The notes below the pieces were generated by a model, which was given only the letters and a program-made list of their open reading frames with translations, did not search any database and was not told where the DNA came from. Shown in pieces: positions 39,763-58,307 of a stretch of DNA of 58,307 nt; within the stretch, counting starts at the first letter, position 1, and each line of letters opens with the position of its first letter. The stretch is from Lachnotalea glycerini. GTDB taxonomy: Bacteria > Bacillota > Clostridia > Lachnospirales > Lachnospiraceae. The translations under genes were made by a program, and so were the position numbers. The DNA lies in NCBI RefSeq assembly GCF_003201285.1, contig NZ_QICS01000019.1, positions 1 through 58,307 of the forward strand, written 5' to 3'.

Positions 39763-39818
39763 CATTTTCGGCTACATTAAATTTTTAATAAAATCAAAAA
39801 TCTCTGTACCCTTAGTAC

Positions 39819-39865
39819 TGCGGATGACAGGAATCGAACCTGCACGGTCTCCCACTAGATCCTAA
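39819..39865. other. Probable phage attachment site (attL or attR)
   Basis: The 3' half of tRNA-Leu(UAG) lies next to a tyrosine integrase gene with no host genes between. Phages of this type integrate at tRNA 3' ends. The core cannot be delimited because the opposite prophage end is outside the window. Confidence 0.5.
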
Positions 39866-39898
39866 GTCTAGCGCGTCTGCCAGTTCCGCCACATCCGC
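39819..39898 (-). tRNA. tRNA-Leu(UAG)
   Basis: Minus-strand cloverleaf with acceptor GCGGATG / CATCCGC, anticodon stem CTAGA..TCTAG around TAG, a short variable arm. CCA is not encoded. Its 3' end faces the integrase gene and is the likely attB/attL site. Confidence 0.92.
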
Positions 39899-39920
39899 AT
39901 ATGTTATCAATGATAACAAG

Positions 39921-39993
39921 TGAGACATCGGGGATTCGAACCCCGGACAACTTGATTAAAAGTCAAGTGCTCTACCAACTGAGCTAATATCCC
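39921..39993 (-). tRNA. tRNA-Lys(UUU)
   Basis: Anticodon stem CTTGA CT TTT AA TCAAG, T-loop GTTCGAATC, 3' discriminator A, no CCA encoded. Confidence 0.95.
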
Positions 39994-40036
39994 ATAACCA
40001 ATTCATATGATTAAAATTAACATTTACTTTAGCTAA

Positions 40037-40108
40037 CTGGGCTAGCTGGATTTGAACCAGCGAGTGCAGGAATCAAAATCCTGTGCCTTACCGCTTGGCG
40101 ATAGCCCA
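40037..40108 (-). tRNA. tRNA-Gln(UUG)
   Basis: Acceptor TGGGCTA/TAGCCCA, anticodon stem CAGGA TT TTG AT TCCTG, no CCA encoded. Confidence 0.95.
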
Positions 40109-40138
40109 CTATACGCTTTTCTAAAACGAAAAACCAAG

Positions 40139-40212
40139 GTGGATACAGGGATTCGAACCCTGGGCCTCCAGAGCCACAATCTGGCGCGCTAACCAACTGC
40201 GCTATACCCACC
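40139..40212 (-). tRNA. tRNA-His(GUG)
   Basis: Eight-pair acceptor with extra 5' G typical of tRNA-His; anticodon stem CCAGA TT GTG GC TCTGG. No CCA encoded. Confidence 0.95.
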
Positions 40213-40236
40213 ATAAGCAATTTTGGCGAAAAAAAA

Positions 40237-40310
<74 letters not shown>

Positions 40311-40368
40311 ATGTCATAAAAATTATATTTGTATGATATATCTTGTCCATAAACAAATTGTATCATAA

Positions 40369-40439
40369 AGCGGGTGATGGGAATCGAACCCACGTATCTA
40401 GCTTGGAAGGCTAGTGTTCTACCATTGAACTACACCCGC
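40369..40439 (-). tRNA. tRNA-Gly(UCC)
   Basis: Acceptor GCGGGTG/CACCCGC, anticodon stem CTAGC CT TCC AA GCTAG. No CCA encoded. Confidence 0.95.
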
Positions 40440-40465
40440 AAATCAATATTAAATTGTTAGCGAAT

Positions 40466-40539
40466 CGGGGTGACAGGATTCGAACCTGCGACCTCCTGGT
40501 CCCAAACCAGGCGCTCTAGCCAAGCTGAGCCACACCCCG
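40466..40539 (-). tRNA. tRNA-Pro(UGG)
   Basis: Acceptor CGGGGTG/CACCCCG, anticodon stem CCTGG TT TGG GA CCAGG. First gene of the seven-tRNA operon. No CCA encoded. Confidence 0.95.
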
Positions 40540-47696: not shown

Positions 47697-47812
47697 GTAA
47701 AAAGAATTTACCCTTCAAAGAATTTTTTTTACATTATATAACCCCTTATTAATTATTTATACTCCCCTCATTGAAGGCTTGGTAGCTCCCCTACCAAGCC
47801 TTTGATCTTTGT
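47697..47812 (+). ncRNA. Candidate small RNA (about 110 nt)
   Basis: Bounded by the promoter above and the strong terminator at 47776-47800. No ORF of note inside. CCTTCAA near the 5' end can pair with TTGAAGG just before and into the terminator stem, giving two alternative folds. Could also be a leader, but a separate promoter lies downstream for the ECF gene. Confidence 0.4.
47776..47800 (+). terminator. Strong intrinsic terminator
   Basis: GGCTTGGTAG / CTACCAAGCC perfect ten-pair stem, five-base loop, then TTTGATCTTTG and more T-rich sequence. Confidence 0.85.
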
Positions 47813-47833: not shown

Positions 47834-47910
47834 CTGGCTAATAAGCAAAACTGGTATGATAATTTTTAACAAAACTGGCTATTTCGAATATGCCATATGT
47901 CTTGTATAAT
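47834..47910 (+). promoter_or_regulatory. CTGG-repeat activator site and promoter of ECF S-component gene
   Basis: CTGGCTA at 47834, CTGGTAT at 47851, CTGGCTA at 47875 and TATAAT at 47905-47910; the -35 region (47882-47887) is poor. The 24-base step between CTGGTAT and CTGGCTA recurs upstream of the aminotransferase gene. Reverse complement of TGGTAT is ATACCA, the GabR half-site, so a MocR-family activator is likely. Confidence 0.6.
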
Positions 47911-47988
47911 TACCTCAACTTAACAATAGACTGTATAAAATTTATTGATTTTTATGTTTTATCTCTATTGCACAAAAGGAGGTTCGAT

Positions 47989-48570
47989 ATGAATAATAAA
48001 ACTAAAAAAATAGTAATAGGTTCCTTATTTGCTGCACTAACAACAGTTACTACCATGTTAAAACTCCCAACCCCAAGCTTTGGATATATTCATCCCGGTG
48101 ATAGTTTGGTTCTAATGTGTGGTATTATCTTAGGACCTGTGGCAGGTGCACTTTCAGCCGGAATCGGTTCTATGTTTGCCGATATTTTCTCAGGCTATAT
48201 CTCATTTGCACCGGCTACACTAGTTATTAAGGCTATAACTGCTCTAATTGCAGGCTTAATATTCAATCATACTAATTGTAATCACACAATGCGAACTATT
48301 ATAGCCGGAATACCAGGCGAGCTTTTTATGGTATCTGGCTATTATGCTTATGAAGTTTTCCTATTCATTACAACGGCAAAAAGTACCACCGGCACTTCCT
48401 TAGCTGCTGCAATGTCTGCATCACTATTGGGAGTTCCATTTAATATACTTCAAGGTATTGCCGGTATTCTTATTTCTCTGGCCTTGCTTCCGGTTTTATT
48501 AAAAATTAATGATATCCGTGACTGTATTTATCATGAGATGCATAGTATAAAAAAAGATAAGCAAATTTGA
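47989..48570 (+). CDS. ECF transporter S-component (vitamin uptake)
   Basis: 193 residues from ATG 47989 (MNNKTKKIVIGSLFAALTTV), preceded by AGGAGGTTCGAT. Six hydrophobic segments; the S-component motif around 'YIHPGDSLVLMCGIILGPVA' is clear. Lacks ATPase and T subunits here, so it uses the shared energy-coupling module. The promoter shares MocR-like repeats with a PLP-enzyme gene, pointing to a vitamin B6 substrate; riboflavin-type S-components are the alternative. Confidence 0.88.
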   Translation: MNNKTKKIVIGSLFAALTTVTTMLKLPTPSFGYIHPGDSLVLMCGIILGPVAGALSAGIGSMFADIFSGYISFAPATLVIKAITALIAGLIFNHTNCNHTMRTIIAGIPGELFMVSGYYAYEVFLFITTAKSTTGTSLAAAMSASLLGVPFNILQGIAGILISLALLPVLLKINDIRDCIYHEMHSIKKDKQI

Positions 48571-48591
48571 TTTCTGCTTATCTTTTTTATA
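48546..48591. terminator. Bidirectional terminator between ECF and DUF1700 genes
   Basis: TATAAAAAAAGATAAGCA pairs with TGCTTATCTTTTTTATA; A- and T-runs on both sides let it work for both convergent genes. The ECF stop codon lies in the loop. Confidence 0.85.
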
Positions 48592-48599
48592 CTAATATC

Positions 48600-49085
48600 T
48601 TAACGTCTTCCACCCGTAAAATAAGAAACAAGGAAAAAAATTACAATAACAGGAAATAAGATTGGAAGAATGGCAATCGCAATTTGCCCAACTATACACA
48701 AAATAACAATCAACATAATTATTATTAGCATTTTTCCATACCACGAATTTATTTTAAAATTTCCAAATCTAACATCCCAACCATCTTGCTCATCATAAGC
48801 CGCATTAAAACCTTTTCTTCTACTTTCTTCCTTTTGTTCTTCTGCATTTTCATTACTGTAAGTATAAGTTCTGCTGTTTTTTTCAATACTATTTGTATCA
48901 ATGATTGTTTTAGCAATTAATCTAGGTTCTCCAAGTTGCTGCAATACCATTGACTCACTTTTTCCTTTTCTAATTTCTCCATCAATATAGTTTTTATAAT
49001 AAGAAAGATTTTCATTCATAACATTTTGTGTAACTTCACCTTCCAGAGCCTCTTGCAAGGTATTTAAAAATTCGTGCTTACTCAT
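48600..49085 (-). CDS. DUF1700 family membrane protein
   Basis: 161 residues. The N-terminal 'KHEFLNTLQEALEGEVTQNV' to 'MVLQQLGEPRLIAKTIID' region is the DUF1700 signature. The C-terminal third has two hydrophobic segments (about residues 118-136 and 138-156). In many Firmicutes a PadR-family regulator precedes DUF1700, but none is present here. Function poorly known. Confidence 0.9.
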   Translation of the reverse strand: MSKHEFLNTLQEALEGEVTQNVMNENLSYYKNYIDGEIRKGKSESMVLQQLGEPRLIAKTIIDTNSIEKNSRTYTYSNENAEEQKEESRRKGFNAAYDEQDGWDVRFGNFKINSWYGKMLIIIMLIVILCIVGQIAIAILPILFPVIVIFFLVSYFTGGRR

Positions 49086-49414
49086 TTTTTCCTCCTATAT
49101 AGCTTAGAAGCAAATTTATATTATTGCTTATATCATCATATTATCCTTTAAAATATGTTTTATTATATACCATTGCTTTTAAAAATACTACACTTTCACA
49201 ATTAATTCATTATTATAGAATATGTTTCACCCAATTCACTAATTTTTATCACATAATCATCTTAAAACTGGTATGTTTGATTTGTTTAAAATTGGCTATT
49301 TTAAATAATCCATTTATTTTATAATATAAGAATGTGATTTATATAATTCAATTTAATAAGTAGTACATGTGCTGTCTTAGATAACTATCATTACATATAG
49401 AAAGGGGATACAAA
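49086..49414. other. Gene-free stretch upstream of aminotransferase
   Basis: About 330 AT-rich bases between divergent genes. It contains the CTGG-type promoter at 49264-49325; nothing else clear. Confidence 0.6.
49264..49325 (+). promoter_or_regulatory. CTGG-repeat activator site and promoter of aminotransferase gene
   Basis: CTGGTAT at 49268, TTGGCTA at 49292 (24 bases later) and TATAAT at 49320-49325; -35 poor. Flanking AAAACTGGTATG and AAAATTGGCTATTT match the ECF site. Confidence 0.65.
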
Positions 49415-50557
49415 ATGGTTAAGTTAATGACTCCCGGTCCGACACAGGTTAGAGATAATGTACGCTATGCCCGAAGCATTGAAACTACCAATCCTGACTT
49501 GGATTTAGAATTTTATGATTACTATAAGGATACTTGTATGCTGATAGGCAAACTGCTGCAAACCGATAATCCCGTATATATCATGAGTGGAGAAGGTATT
49601 TTAGGTCTTGAATCCGCTTGTGCCTCCTTAACAGAACCAGGCGATAAGGTCCTGGTTCTTGACAATGGCGTATTTGGAAAAGGATTTGCAGATTTCATAA
49701 CTATATACGGAGGGATTCCTGTCTATTATACAGATAGCTATACAGATGAAATTGATGTTGCCAGATTAGCAAAATTTCTAAAATTTAATCATAATTATAA
49801 ATATGCAACATTGGTTCACTGTGATACTCCCAGTGGAGTACTAAACAATGTGAGTGAAATATGTCCTCTCCTTCACCAATATGGAATTCTGACTGTTGTT
49901 GACTCTGTATCCGCTATGTTTGGAGAGCCATTGAATGTAGATAGATGTAACATTGATATCGTATGCGGCGGGTCACAAAAAGCCCTGTCTGCTCCTCCCG
50001 GTTTATCCATGATAGCGGTAAGTAACTCTGCCTTTGAAGCCATGCGAAACCGCCAAACGCCAATTGCATCCTACTATGCAAATATACTAAACTTAAAAGA
50101 TTATTACCAAAATAAATGGTTTCCTTATTCGATGCCAATTAGTGATATTTATGGATTGAGGGCGGCTCTTGACAATGTATCTCTTGATCTTGATATTTAT
50201 CTAAGACATAAGCGAATTGCAAATGCTGTAAGAAATGCAATCACAGTAGGAGGACTACAACTCTATCTTAAAAGTGGCTTTTCAAACACCGTAACTGTGA
50301 TTCAAGTACCTTCTGGAATAAATTGCAAAGATATTTTGACAATATTAAAAGAAAAATATCAAATAATGATTGCTGGAAGCTTTGATGTTATGGCTGATAA
50401 GGTTATCAGAATCGGCCATATGGGTGAAAACTGTAACATAGATGATGTTGCATTGACACTGAATGCATTGACAGAGGTTTTAAGGCAATTGAATTTTCCA
50501 CTAACCAATAATCTAAAGGATATATTTCTTTATAATTTAAATGAATCACATGACTAA
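49415..50557 (+). CDS. Class V aminotransferase (alanine-glyoxylate / PucG / PPAT-like)
   Basis: 380 residues. 'VKLMTPGPTQVRDNVRYARS', 'YIMSGEGILGLESACASLTE', 'YATLVHCDTPSGVLNNVSEI', 'LTVVDSVSAMFGEPLNVDRC' and PLP-lysine 'IVCGGSQKALSAPPGLSMIA' define fold type I class V. Close relatives include alanine-glyoxylate, (S)-ureidoglycine and pyridoxamine-pyruvate aminotransferases. No purine catabolic genes are nearby; the shared promoter with a vitamin transporter hints at B6 metabolism. AGAAAGGGG precedes the ATG. Confidence 0.92.
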   Translation: MVKLMTPGPTQVRDNVRYARSIETTNPDLDLEFYDYYKDTCMLIGKLLQTDNPVYIMSGEGILGLESACASLTEPGDKVLVLDNGVFGKGFADFITIYGGIPVYYTDSYTDEIDVARLAKFLKFNHNYKYATLVHCDTPSGVLNNVSEICPLLHQYGILTVVDSVSAMFGEPLNVDRCNIDIVCGGSQKALSAPPGLSMIAVSNSAFEAMRNRQTPIASYYANILNLKDYYQNKWFPYSMPISDIYGLRAALDNVSLDLDIYLRHKRIANAVRNAITVGGLQLYLKSGFSNTVTVIQVPSGINCKDILTILKEKYQIMIAGSFDVMADKVIRIGHMGENCNIDDVALTLNALTEVLRQLNFPLTNNLKDIFLYNLNESHD

Positions 50558-57248: not shown

Positions 57249-57249
57249 A

Positions 57250-57323
57250 CGTGCGATAGAAGATTCGAACTCCCGGCCTTCTGGTCCGTAGCCAGACGCT
57301 CTATCCAGCTGAGCTAATCGCAC
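57250..57323 (-). tRNA. tRNA-Arg(ACG)
   Basis: Acceptor GTGCGAT/ATCGCAC, anticodon stem TCTGG CT ACG GA CCAGA. No CCA encoded. Last gene before the terminator. Confidence 0.95.
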
Positions 57324-57414
57324 ACATATAAAATAATAATATTAATCTCTTGCATCTAATTGCTGAAACAATTATCTATAAGAGATAAAAGCAATAGAAA
57401 CTACTATTGCTTAC

Positions 57415-57501
57415 TGCCGGCAACCGGAATCGAACCGGTACGAGAGTATAAGTCCCGCAGGATTTTAAGTCCTGTGCGTCTGCCAGTTCCGCCACGCCGG
57501 C
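57415..57501 (-). tRNA. tRNA-Leu(UAA)
   Basis: Acceptor GCCGGCG/TGCCGGC-type, long variable arm, anticodon stem CAGGA CT TAA AA TCCTG. No CCA encoded. Confidence 0.95.
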
Positions 57502-57565
57502 AAAACCATCATTCACTTAATTATTTTAAGTATTATGGTTACTTATTATATAAAATAATAAGTTA

Positions 57566-57638
57566 TGGGACCAACAGGGCTCGAACCTGTGACCCTCTGC
57601 TTGTAAGGCAGATGCTCTCCCAGCTGAGCTATGATCCC
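57566..57638 (-). tRNA. tRNA-Val(UAC)
   Basis: Acceptor GGGATCA/TGGTCCC, anticodon stem TCTGC CT TAC AA GCAGA. No CCA encoded. Confidence 0.95.
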
Positions 57639-57677
57639 ATGGGAAAAACAATATTGACTTTTTATATCCAATATCAA

Positions 57678-57751
57678 CGACCCGAATGGGACTCGAACCC
57701 ACGACCTCCGCCGTGACAGGGCGGCGCTCTAACCAACTGAGCCATCGGGCC
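57678..57751 (-). tRNA. tRNA-Asp(GUC)
   Basis: Acceptor GGCCCGA/TCGGGTC, anticodon stem CCGCC CT GTC AC GGCGG. No CCA encoded. Confidence 0.95.
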
Positions 57752-57780
57752 TTACTACATTACAAAGAGTTTTAAATAAA

Positions 57781-57854
57781 TGGACCTTCGGGGACTCGAA
57801 CCCAGGACCGATCGGTTATGAGCCGATTGCTCTAACCAACTGAGCTAAAGGTCC
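57781..57854 (-). tRNA. tRNA with CAU anticodon (Met elongator or Ile2)
   Basis: Acceptor GGACCTT/AAGGTCC, anticodon stem ATCGG CT CAT AA CCGAT. CAU serves elongator Met or, if lysidine-modified, Ile; sequence alone does not decide here, though it resembles elongator Met. Confidence 0.9.
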
Positions 57855-57886
57855 AAATCTCTTCATTACTAATATGATATTAGTCA

Positions 57887-57959
57887 AGCCGACGATCGGA
57901 CTTGAACCGATAACCTGCTGATTACAAGTCAGCTGCTCTGCCAATTGAGCCACGTCGGC
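57887..57959 (-). tRNA. tRNA-Thr(UGU)
   Basis: Acceptor GCCGACG/CGTCGGC, anticodon stem GCTGA CT TGT AA TCAGC. No CCA encoded. Confidence 0.95.
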
Positions 57960-57968
57960 ACTTATAAG

Positions 57969-58040
57969 TGACTCCAAGGGGATTTGAACCCCTGTTACCG
58001 CCGTGAAAGGGCGGTGTCTTAACCGCTTGACCATGGAGCC
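57969..58040 (-). tRNA. tRNA-Glu(UUC)
   Basis: Acceptor GGCTCCA/TGGAGTC, anticodon stem CCGCC CT TTC AC GGCGG. No CCA encoded. Confidence 0.95.
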
Positions 58041-58052
58041 GGCTTTTCTAAA

Positions 58053-58124
58053 CTCCCTGAGTAGGGCTCGAACCTACAACACCACGGTTAACAGCCGTGT
58101 GCTCTACCATTGAGCTATCAAGGA
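58053..58124 (-). tRNA. tRNA-Asn(GUU)
   Basis: Acceptor TCCTTGA/TCAGGGA, anticodon stem ACGGC TG TTA-style loop with GTT, GCCGT side. First tRNA after the rRNA. No CCA encoded. Confidence 0.94.
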
Positions 58125-58221
58125 TTATAAAGGTTTGTACCTTCAAAACTGCACATTGAACTCGAAAAATATTTGACGCTTCTTAGCTCTTCAAGCTTCG
58201 CTTGTCGTTTGCTATTCTCTT

Positions 58222-58307
58222 TGGGTCATGCCCTCGACCGATTAGTAACAGTCAGCTCCATACATTACTGCACTTCCACCTCTGCCCTATCTACCTTGTA
58301 CTCTTCA
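58222..58307 (-). rRNA. 23S rRNA 3' end (partial)
   Basis: On the minus strand the sequence runs through GGAGCTGACTGTTACTAATC to GGTCGAGGGCATGACCC, the conserved 3' end of Firmicute 23S rRNA. The spacer to tRNA-Asn is about 97 bases and holds no 5S gene. Confidence 0.95.

Follow-up and report, generated by a model that had tools for sequence, protein, structure and literature searches.

Promoter sites of PdxR type shared by an ECF S-component gene and a pyridoxamine-pyruvate aminotransferase-like gene in Lachnotalea glycerini

Do two genes of Lachnotalea glycerini that carry the same repeats in their promoters belong to one regulon, and what would that regulon be for? The genes, encoding an ECF transporter S-component and a class V aminotransferase, lie in a stretch of 58,307 nt (hereafter the window) and are listed with their promoter elements in Table 1. 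A sequence-only reading had attributed the repeats to a regulator of the MocR family and the two genes to a small regulon for vitamin B6 salvage, with the aminotransferase perhaps interconverting pyridoxamine and pyridoxal.

Table 1. Coordinates of the promoter elements and genes in the window.
Feature	Coordinates	Strand	Remarks
Box 1, site A	47849..47857	+	AACTGGTAT; ACTGGTAT begins at 47850
Box 2, site A	47874..47882	+	ACTGGCTAT; spaced 24 bp from box 1, ACTGG to ACTGG
Box 3, site A	47893..47895	+	CCA, inverted half-site
-10 TATAAT of the S-component gene promoter (site A)	47905..47910	+	31 nt past the start of box 2; without a good -35
ECF transporter S-component (PF07155), PdxU/HmpT-like	47989..48570	+	Start placed at the ATG behind AAGGAGG; site A upstream
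HAAS-domain gene between the two units	48600..49085	-	Outside the regulon
Box 1, site B	49266..49274	+	AACTGGTAT; ACTGGTAT begins at 49267
Box 2, site B	49291..49299	+	ATTGGCTAT; 24 bp after box 1
Box 3, site B	49310..49312	+	CCA, inverted half-site
-10 TATAAT of the aminotransferase promoter (site B)	49320..49325	+	29 nt past the start of box 2
Class V aminotransferase, pyridoxamine-pyruvate aminotransferase (PPAT)-like	49415..50557	+	Glu60, Asp163, Lys189; site B upstream

Read directly from the sequence, the two promoters share a single three-part layout, which spans 47849-47910 at site A and 49266-49325 at site B. The double repeat reported earlier is real: box 2, whose consensus over both sites is A(C/T)TGGCTAT, follows AACTGGTAT at the same spacing in each and precedes TATAAT by a similar distance. 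The -35 boxes, described as poor, are indeed so, the promoter listing giving no sigma-70-type -35 partner for the TATAAT of either site. What had been overlooked is the third, inverted box (CCA), which in both sites lies 19 bp downstream of the first base of box 2 and is followed, counting from its first base, by TATAAT after 12 bp (A) or 10 bp (B). The additional CTGGCTA noted at 47834 is present, but CTGG occupies that offset in only one of the 102 sites read, the window's own; the repeat is therefore taken as chance and not as an extra box. A site search found no such site before the intervening HAAS-domain gene. A terminator-like stem of 16 pairs (47770-47806) lies upstream of site A, and the window also holds two clusters of tRNA genes (39818-40539 and 57249-58307), the second adjoining the end of a 23S rRNA gene.

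Searched through the window with up to three mismatches, the two-box pattern gave two matches, both perfect, against 0.33 expected, and five of 100 shuffles reached two; a three-box pattern, with CCA set one base late, gave two matches of two mismatches each against 0.00 expected. Across the 4.86-Mb genome, the two-box pattern occurs twice without mismatch (sites A and B) and six times with three mismatches, the reversed control giving two. An initial search of 299 genomes of the family Lachnospiraceae (numbered G, with G000 the window's own genome; loci are numbered L), allowing one mismatch at most, returned 34 places in 29 genomes, against four for the reversed control. Of these, 31 were read, in 30 loci; The other three had no locus of their own: two belong to L194 and L272, and one is G033:C3:176743. 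Five were dropped, four because they fall inside long reading frames (L040, L041, L043, L054) and L058 by judgement, its site falling where a short frame begins and no vitamin B6 gene is nearby, and a profile was built from the 24 of the 26 retained sites that are not the window's. At E <= 1e-6 the profile finds 96 sites in 79 of the 299 genomes, comprising the 24 training sites, the two of the window and 70 new ones. Of the 102 sites read, 92 have CCA in the place of the third box, though the pattern first searched for did not include it. The upstream regions of relatives thus conserve the repeats and their spacing, as a MocR-type operator with boxes a fixed 24 bp apart. In the window's genome, sites A and B score 44.2 and 41.5 bits and the next place 18.1, leaving just two strong sites, and the regulon there seems to consist of just two single-gene units. 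Four training sites (L038, L052, L053 and L062, in G207, G147, G089 and G078) have TATT after box 1, and their genomes hold only the second MocR type described below; the last base of that stretch is G in 18 of the 24 training sites, and T also in L046 and L056. The variant perhaps marks two PdxR types with slightly different sites.

The genes behind the sites are few in kind. In 92 of the 96 cases the first reading frame of at least 80 codons encodes an S-component, PdxS, PdxK or this aminotransferase, so that the pattern is not spread over many unrelated genes. Classed by BLAST against references taken from those loci that had supplied the training sites, some of which were checked by family scan (PdxS, PdxT and pyridoxamine kinase above their equivalog cut-offs, seven S-components as PF07155, and DUF436), the sites precede an S-component without another known partner in 47 cases, an S-component with the aminotransferase in 10, with pdxK in nine, with DUF436 in three and with a MocR-like frame in one; pdxS with or without pdxT in 11; pdxK in six and pdxK followed by an S-component in three; the aminotransferase alone in five; and none of these classes in one. 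The DUF436 protein (PF04260, TIGR01440; the L177 copy was scanned) follows the S-component in three operons with such sites: L038/L178, L039/L177 and L053. In the remaining four cases the first frame of at least 80 codons is an amidohydrolase of PF04909 type, assigned in L207 (1639-2424, + strand) by family scan and in L220, L254 and L263 by likeness to it by eye. An S-component follows it in L207, L220 and L254, two of which were counted above as S-component alone and one as S-component with a MocR-like frame. This amidohydrolase is a candidate new enzyme of vitamin B6 salvage. The published target set of PdxR comprises pdxST, pdxK and pdxU, the same genes as are found behind these sites, and two direct boxes with one inverted box are described in that account as the commonest layout of MocR motifs (PMC5320631). 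Judged by site and gene context, both genes of the window are members of a PdxR-type regulon. The small vitamin B6 regulon proposed from the sequence is thus supported, with two strong sites in the genome and 96 in the family, next to which lie vitamin B6 genes or, in four cases, the amidohydrolase.

The S-component of the window belongs to PF07155 (108 bits, cut-off 26.7). Because the Pfam name of this family mentions riboflavin, a riboflavin importer was considered and rejected: a profile of 20 S-components from the regulon matches HmpT (4hzu) at 8e-22 (81 bits) and RibU at 2.2e-6 (31 bits). A profile restricted to the window's own subgroup of seven finds HmpT at 1.2e-8, the next match being 6fnp, a 'Membrane protein', at 0.2; the window protein alone has no match among solved chains at 0.001. 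HmpT, also named PdxU2, is a PF07155-type S-component (PMC9997740) and is described as preferring pyridoxamine (PMC4860826). The nearest solved relative of the regulon's S-components is therefore this vitamin B6 transporter and not RibU, and the grouping with a non-B6 family that would have spoken against the vitamin B6 assignment was not found. At the positions of the HmpT ligand residues Glu41 and His84, the window protein has Asp and Lys in the alignment. The S-components of the regulon fall into several clades. When 77 of them were placed in a tree together with HmpT, the 15 linked to the aminotransferase, along with one from an incomplete contig, formed a single clade (100/98); since many of the 15 were fetched because of the aminotransferase, they are not a blind sample. 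The window's S-component falls in another clade, and HmpT, on a long branch, joins two DUF436-linked S-components with weak support, outside the window's clade.

The best NCBIfam family of the aminotransferase is NF046070, pyridoxamine-pyruvate transaminase, with 226.2 bits against an equivalog cut-off of 600, and its best solved match is 2z9u (2.9e-44); 2Z9X, of the same set of PPAT entries, is named PPAT in a published account (PMC6797613). In a tree that includes the window protein and 10 of the 37 in-clade rows of a wider alignment (L175 left out), the enzyme and its relatives join the Mesorhizobium PPAT (100/98), apart from AGT, BhcA, 2-aminoethylphosphonate aminotransferase and the genome's own paralogue; 2z9u forms a long branch there, so its place is less sure. 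Three residues of PPAT have their equivalents in the window protein, with Glu60 for Glu68 of the phosphate-cup loop, Asp163 for Asp171 and Lys189 for the Schiff-base lysine. In PPAT, Glu68 takes the place of phosphate binding. In the tree alignment, glutamate occupies this position in all 13 rows of the PPAT clade and in none of the 11 others, and in the wider alignment in all 38 in-clade rows, the window's included, the others having Ser, Thr or Pro. The PPAT residues K197 and D171 are given in a published account (PMC9309667). The earlier guess of a pyridoxamine/pyridoxal enzyme is thus well supported in terms of sequence by the clade and by Glu60, but the score stays below the NCBIfam cut-off.

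Orthologues of the aminotransferase (E <= 1e-60) occur in 31 of the 299 family genomes, and the nearest named relatives are from Anaerocolumna bins and Candidatus Galacturonibacter. Their 31 loci, of which L068 is incomplete and L167 has only a short remnant as its S-component match, show a site upstream in 21 cases (profile score of at least 15), an S-component directly upstream in 22, and one or both in 27; neither lies upstream in L152, L155, L160 and L162. Sites are found in 19 of the 31 genomes with the aminotransferase, as against 60 of the 268 without it (Fisher p 1.6e-5). The enzyme does not mark genomes that lack pdxS, a gene present in nine of the 31 with it and in 55 of the 268 without (p 0.35). 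In G144 there are two sites, one leading to an S-component of the window's type and the other to an S-component of the linked type with the aminotransferase, and in Candidatus Galacturonibacter (L128) one site precedes a window-type S-component while a second lies about 630 nt before the aminotransferase. In the light of these two arrangements, the window looks like a derived form, with loss of the linked S-component that would have separated site B from the aminotransferase.

The Lachnospiraceae are a family of anaerobes. No match to pdxS was found in the window's genome, which is 97.9% complete, at E <= 1e-30, and the gene is present in 64 of the 299 family genomes. The profile of the PdxH C-terminal domain scores above its cut-off in none of the 299, with one weak match in G239. 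Given that neither pdxS nor this domain was found in its genome, the bacterium probably imports and salvages vitamin B6. For the type of pdxK that is regulated in relatives, a search at E <= 1e-10 gave no match in the window's genome and matches in 17 of the 36 genomes covered.

Three full-length MocR genes are present in the window's genome. The product of one (C14:23757-25151) scores 558 bits against the PdxR equivalog NF052282, for which the cut-off is 320; a second (C9:163510, at L015) also lies above it with 366, and the third (C9:151843) below it with 264. The nearest solved relatives of the C14 protein are 7pq9 (1e-120) and then GabR. The proposed check for a MocR or PdxR gene with the same site thus yields the gene, a PdxR equivalog encoded outside the window, but not the site, since no strong one precedes the C14 gene. 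Autoregulation was likewise rejected for all three MocR genes, none having a convincing site before it. Orthologues of the C14 protein (47-76% identity) were fetched from 29 of 48 other genomes, many of them picked for having sites, and among the 28 of these relatives that were scanned 21 have a site and seven have none at the threshold (G005, G013, G127, G022, G003, G019 and G012). None of the 30 loci of this type, viewed over about 1.5 kb on each side, has it beside vitamin B6 genes. A second MocR type in relatives, about 40% identical to the C14 type, does flank such genes and is also a PdxR equivalog (529 and 557 bits for the two scanned). A site at E <= 0.001 is present in six of the 16 loci around second-type genes (L178, L278, L273, L276, L281 and L275). 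In L178 the gene lies upstream of the site, an S-component and DUF436; in four loci it diverges from pdxS, the two genes enclosing a weaker site in L275 and L276 and none in L274 and L277; and L273 has, beside its operon, just a PdxR-like segment of 94 residues. In G036 (99% complete; strong sites at L047, L064 and L238), the C14 PdxR query found no full MocR gene. Control by a MocR-type regulator is thus supported by a PdxR equivalog in the genome and by PdxR-equivalog genes that adjoin such sites in some relatives, among them L178 and L276, and the protein binding sites A and B is most likely the C14 PdxR.

Other readings of these data have to be weighed. The least credible, to which we give practically no weight, is that the repeats are a chance resemblance or an effect of low complexity: the sequence is AT-rich and five of the 100 shuffles above reach the two-box count, but the genome scan and the gene context contradict it and the recovery of 96 sites in 79 genomes refutes it. 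The motif might also belong to a regulator other than the C14 PdxR, for instance to either of the remaining MocR proteins, of which the L015 protein also exceeds the PdxR cut-off. The want of a strong site before the C14 gene and the seven scanned relatives that have the orthologue and no site would suit such a regulator. We nevertheless hold this to be improbable, as among the three MocR genes it is C14 that matches PdxR best, 21 of the 28 scanned relatives with an orthologue of at least 47% identity have the site (many having been chosen for it), and genes of the second PdxR-equivalog type adjoin sites of this kind.

For the enzyme, the regulon could hold and yet switch on, together with the supply of PLP, an ordinary PLP-dependent aminotransferase of the alanine-glyoxylate or serine-pyruvate type. 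Many such enzymes belong to class V, PdxR regulons are known to include PLP-dependent aminotransferases (PMC5320631), and the NF046070 score is low. Against this stand the place within the PPAT clade, a glutamate that among the rows compared is common only to PPAT, and the repeated operons with an S-component of vitamin B6 type, so that we regard an ordinary aminotransferase as unlikely. A still slimmer chance is left to an enzyme that acts on phosphorylated vitamers (PMP with 2-oxoglutarate, EC 2.6.1.54) or in the reverse direction, from pyridoxal to pyridoxamine. Clostridium kainantoi is cited as the source of a PMP:2-oxoglutarate aminotransferase (PMC9309667). Reactions of this kind are reversible. 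The glutamate in place of a small phosphate-cup residue argues against phosphate there, and the direction from pyridoxamine to pyridoxal is favoured by the gene's association with an importer that takes up unphosphorylated vitamins.

We therefore return to PdxR and a PPAT-like enzyme as the preferred reading, and consider it likely, as judged from sequence comparison, that PdxR switches on vitamin B6 import together with an oxygen-independent conversion of pyridoxamine to pyridoxal. By analogy with characterised PdxR proteins, the C14 PdxR would activate both genes when PLP is short. PdxR of Streptococcus pyogenes is reported to induce pdxKU when vitamin B6 is absent (PMC11619246). At low PLP the C14 protein would sit on boxes 1 and 2, beside the place where a -35 is lacking, and recruit RNA polymerase, and the inverted box close to the -10 may act in a shut-off that depends on PLP. 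The S-component, together with a shared ECF module, would import vitamin B6. The aminotransferase is proposed to form pyridoxal and alanine from pyridoxamine and a keto acid, for instance pyruvate, using vitamin B6 vitamers as substrates and not as cofactor, and would thereby stand in for the oxygen-dependent PdxH in a bacterium that probably has no PLP synthesis of its own; a putative kinase would then make PLP from pyridoxal. Taking the loci of relatives together, we suggest more tentatively, as a possibility we would not yet favour, that Lachnospiraceae have a dedicated, PdxR-controlled pyridoxamine module, in which an ECF S-component of a clade of its own captures pyridoxamine and a PPAT-like enzyme of the same operon turns it into pyridoxal without oxygen, and that the window has lost the dedicated S-component, so that its site drives the enzyme alone.

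If this reading is correct, pyridoxamine could sustain anaerobes that lack PdxH and are at present believed to salvage pyridoxal alone, and predictions of which forms of vitamin B6 such bacteria need or share would change. About 93% of some 1900 salvage-only organisms are reported to encode only a PdxK or PdxY kinase, suggesting salvage of pyridoxal alone (PMC9997740), and the biological role of pyridoxamine aminotransferases is called currently unclear in a review (PMC9309667). The regulatory and operon evidence gives such an enzyme a likely role in a large anaerobic family, that of salvaging pyridoxamine without oxygen. PdxR regulons, PdxU and PPAT are each known; their link looks new, and is not reported in the titles, abstract openings and text passages of open-access papers that the search covered.

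The system can be compared with three that are known. It shares with HmpT/PdxU2 (PDB 4HZU) an S-component of PF07155 type, HmpT being the best PDB match of the regulon profile, and differs from it at the two aligned residues and in the separate clade of the window protein. With the Mesorhizobium PPAT (PDB 2Z9U-2Z9X), its best PDB match, the aminotransferase shares a clade and the equivalents of the Schiff-base lysine, the aspartate and Glu68. The M. loti enzyme belongs to vitamin B6 degradation. The window enzyme differs from the Mesorhizobium PPAT in scoring below the NCBIfam equivalog cut-off, in standing under PdxR-type control and in its pairing with an importer. The PdxR regulons of Firmicutes (Suvorova and Rodionov 2016; PdxR-PdxKU in Streptococcus pyogenes) have in common with this one a MocR regulator, the targets pdxST, pdxK and pdxU, and the layout of the boxes. 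The terms 'pyridoxamine-pyruvate', 'PpaT' and 'class V' are absent from the main text of PMC5320631. Compared with these known regulons of Firmicutes, the one described here has a PPAT-like class V aminotransferase as a recurrent target.
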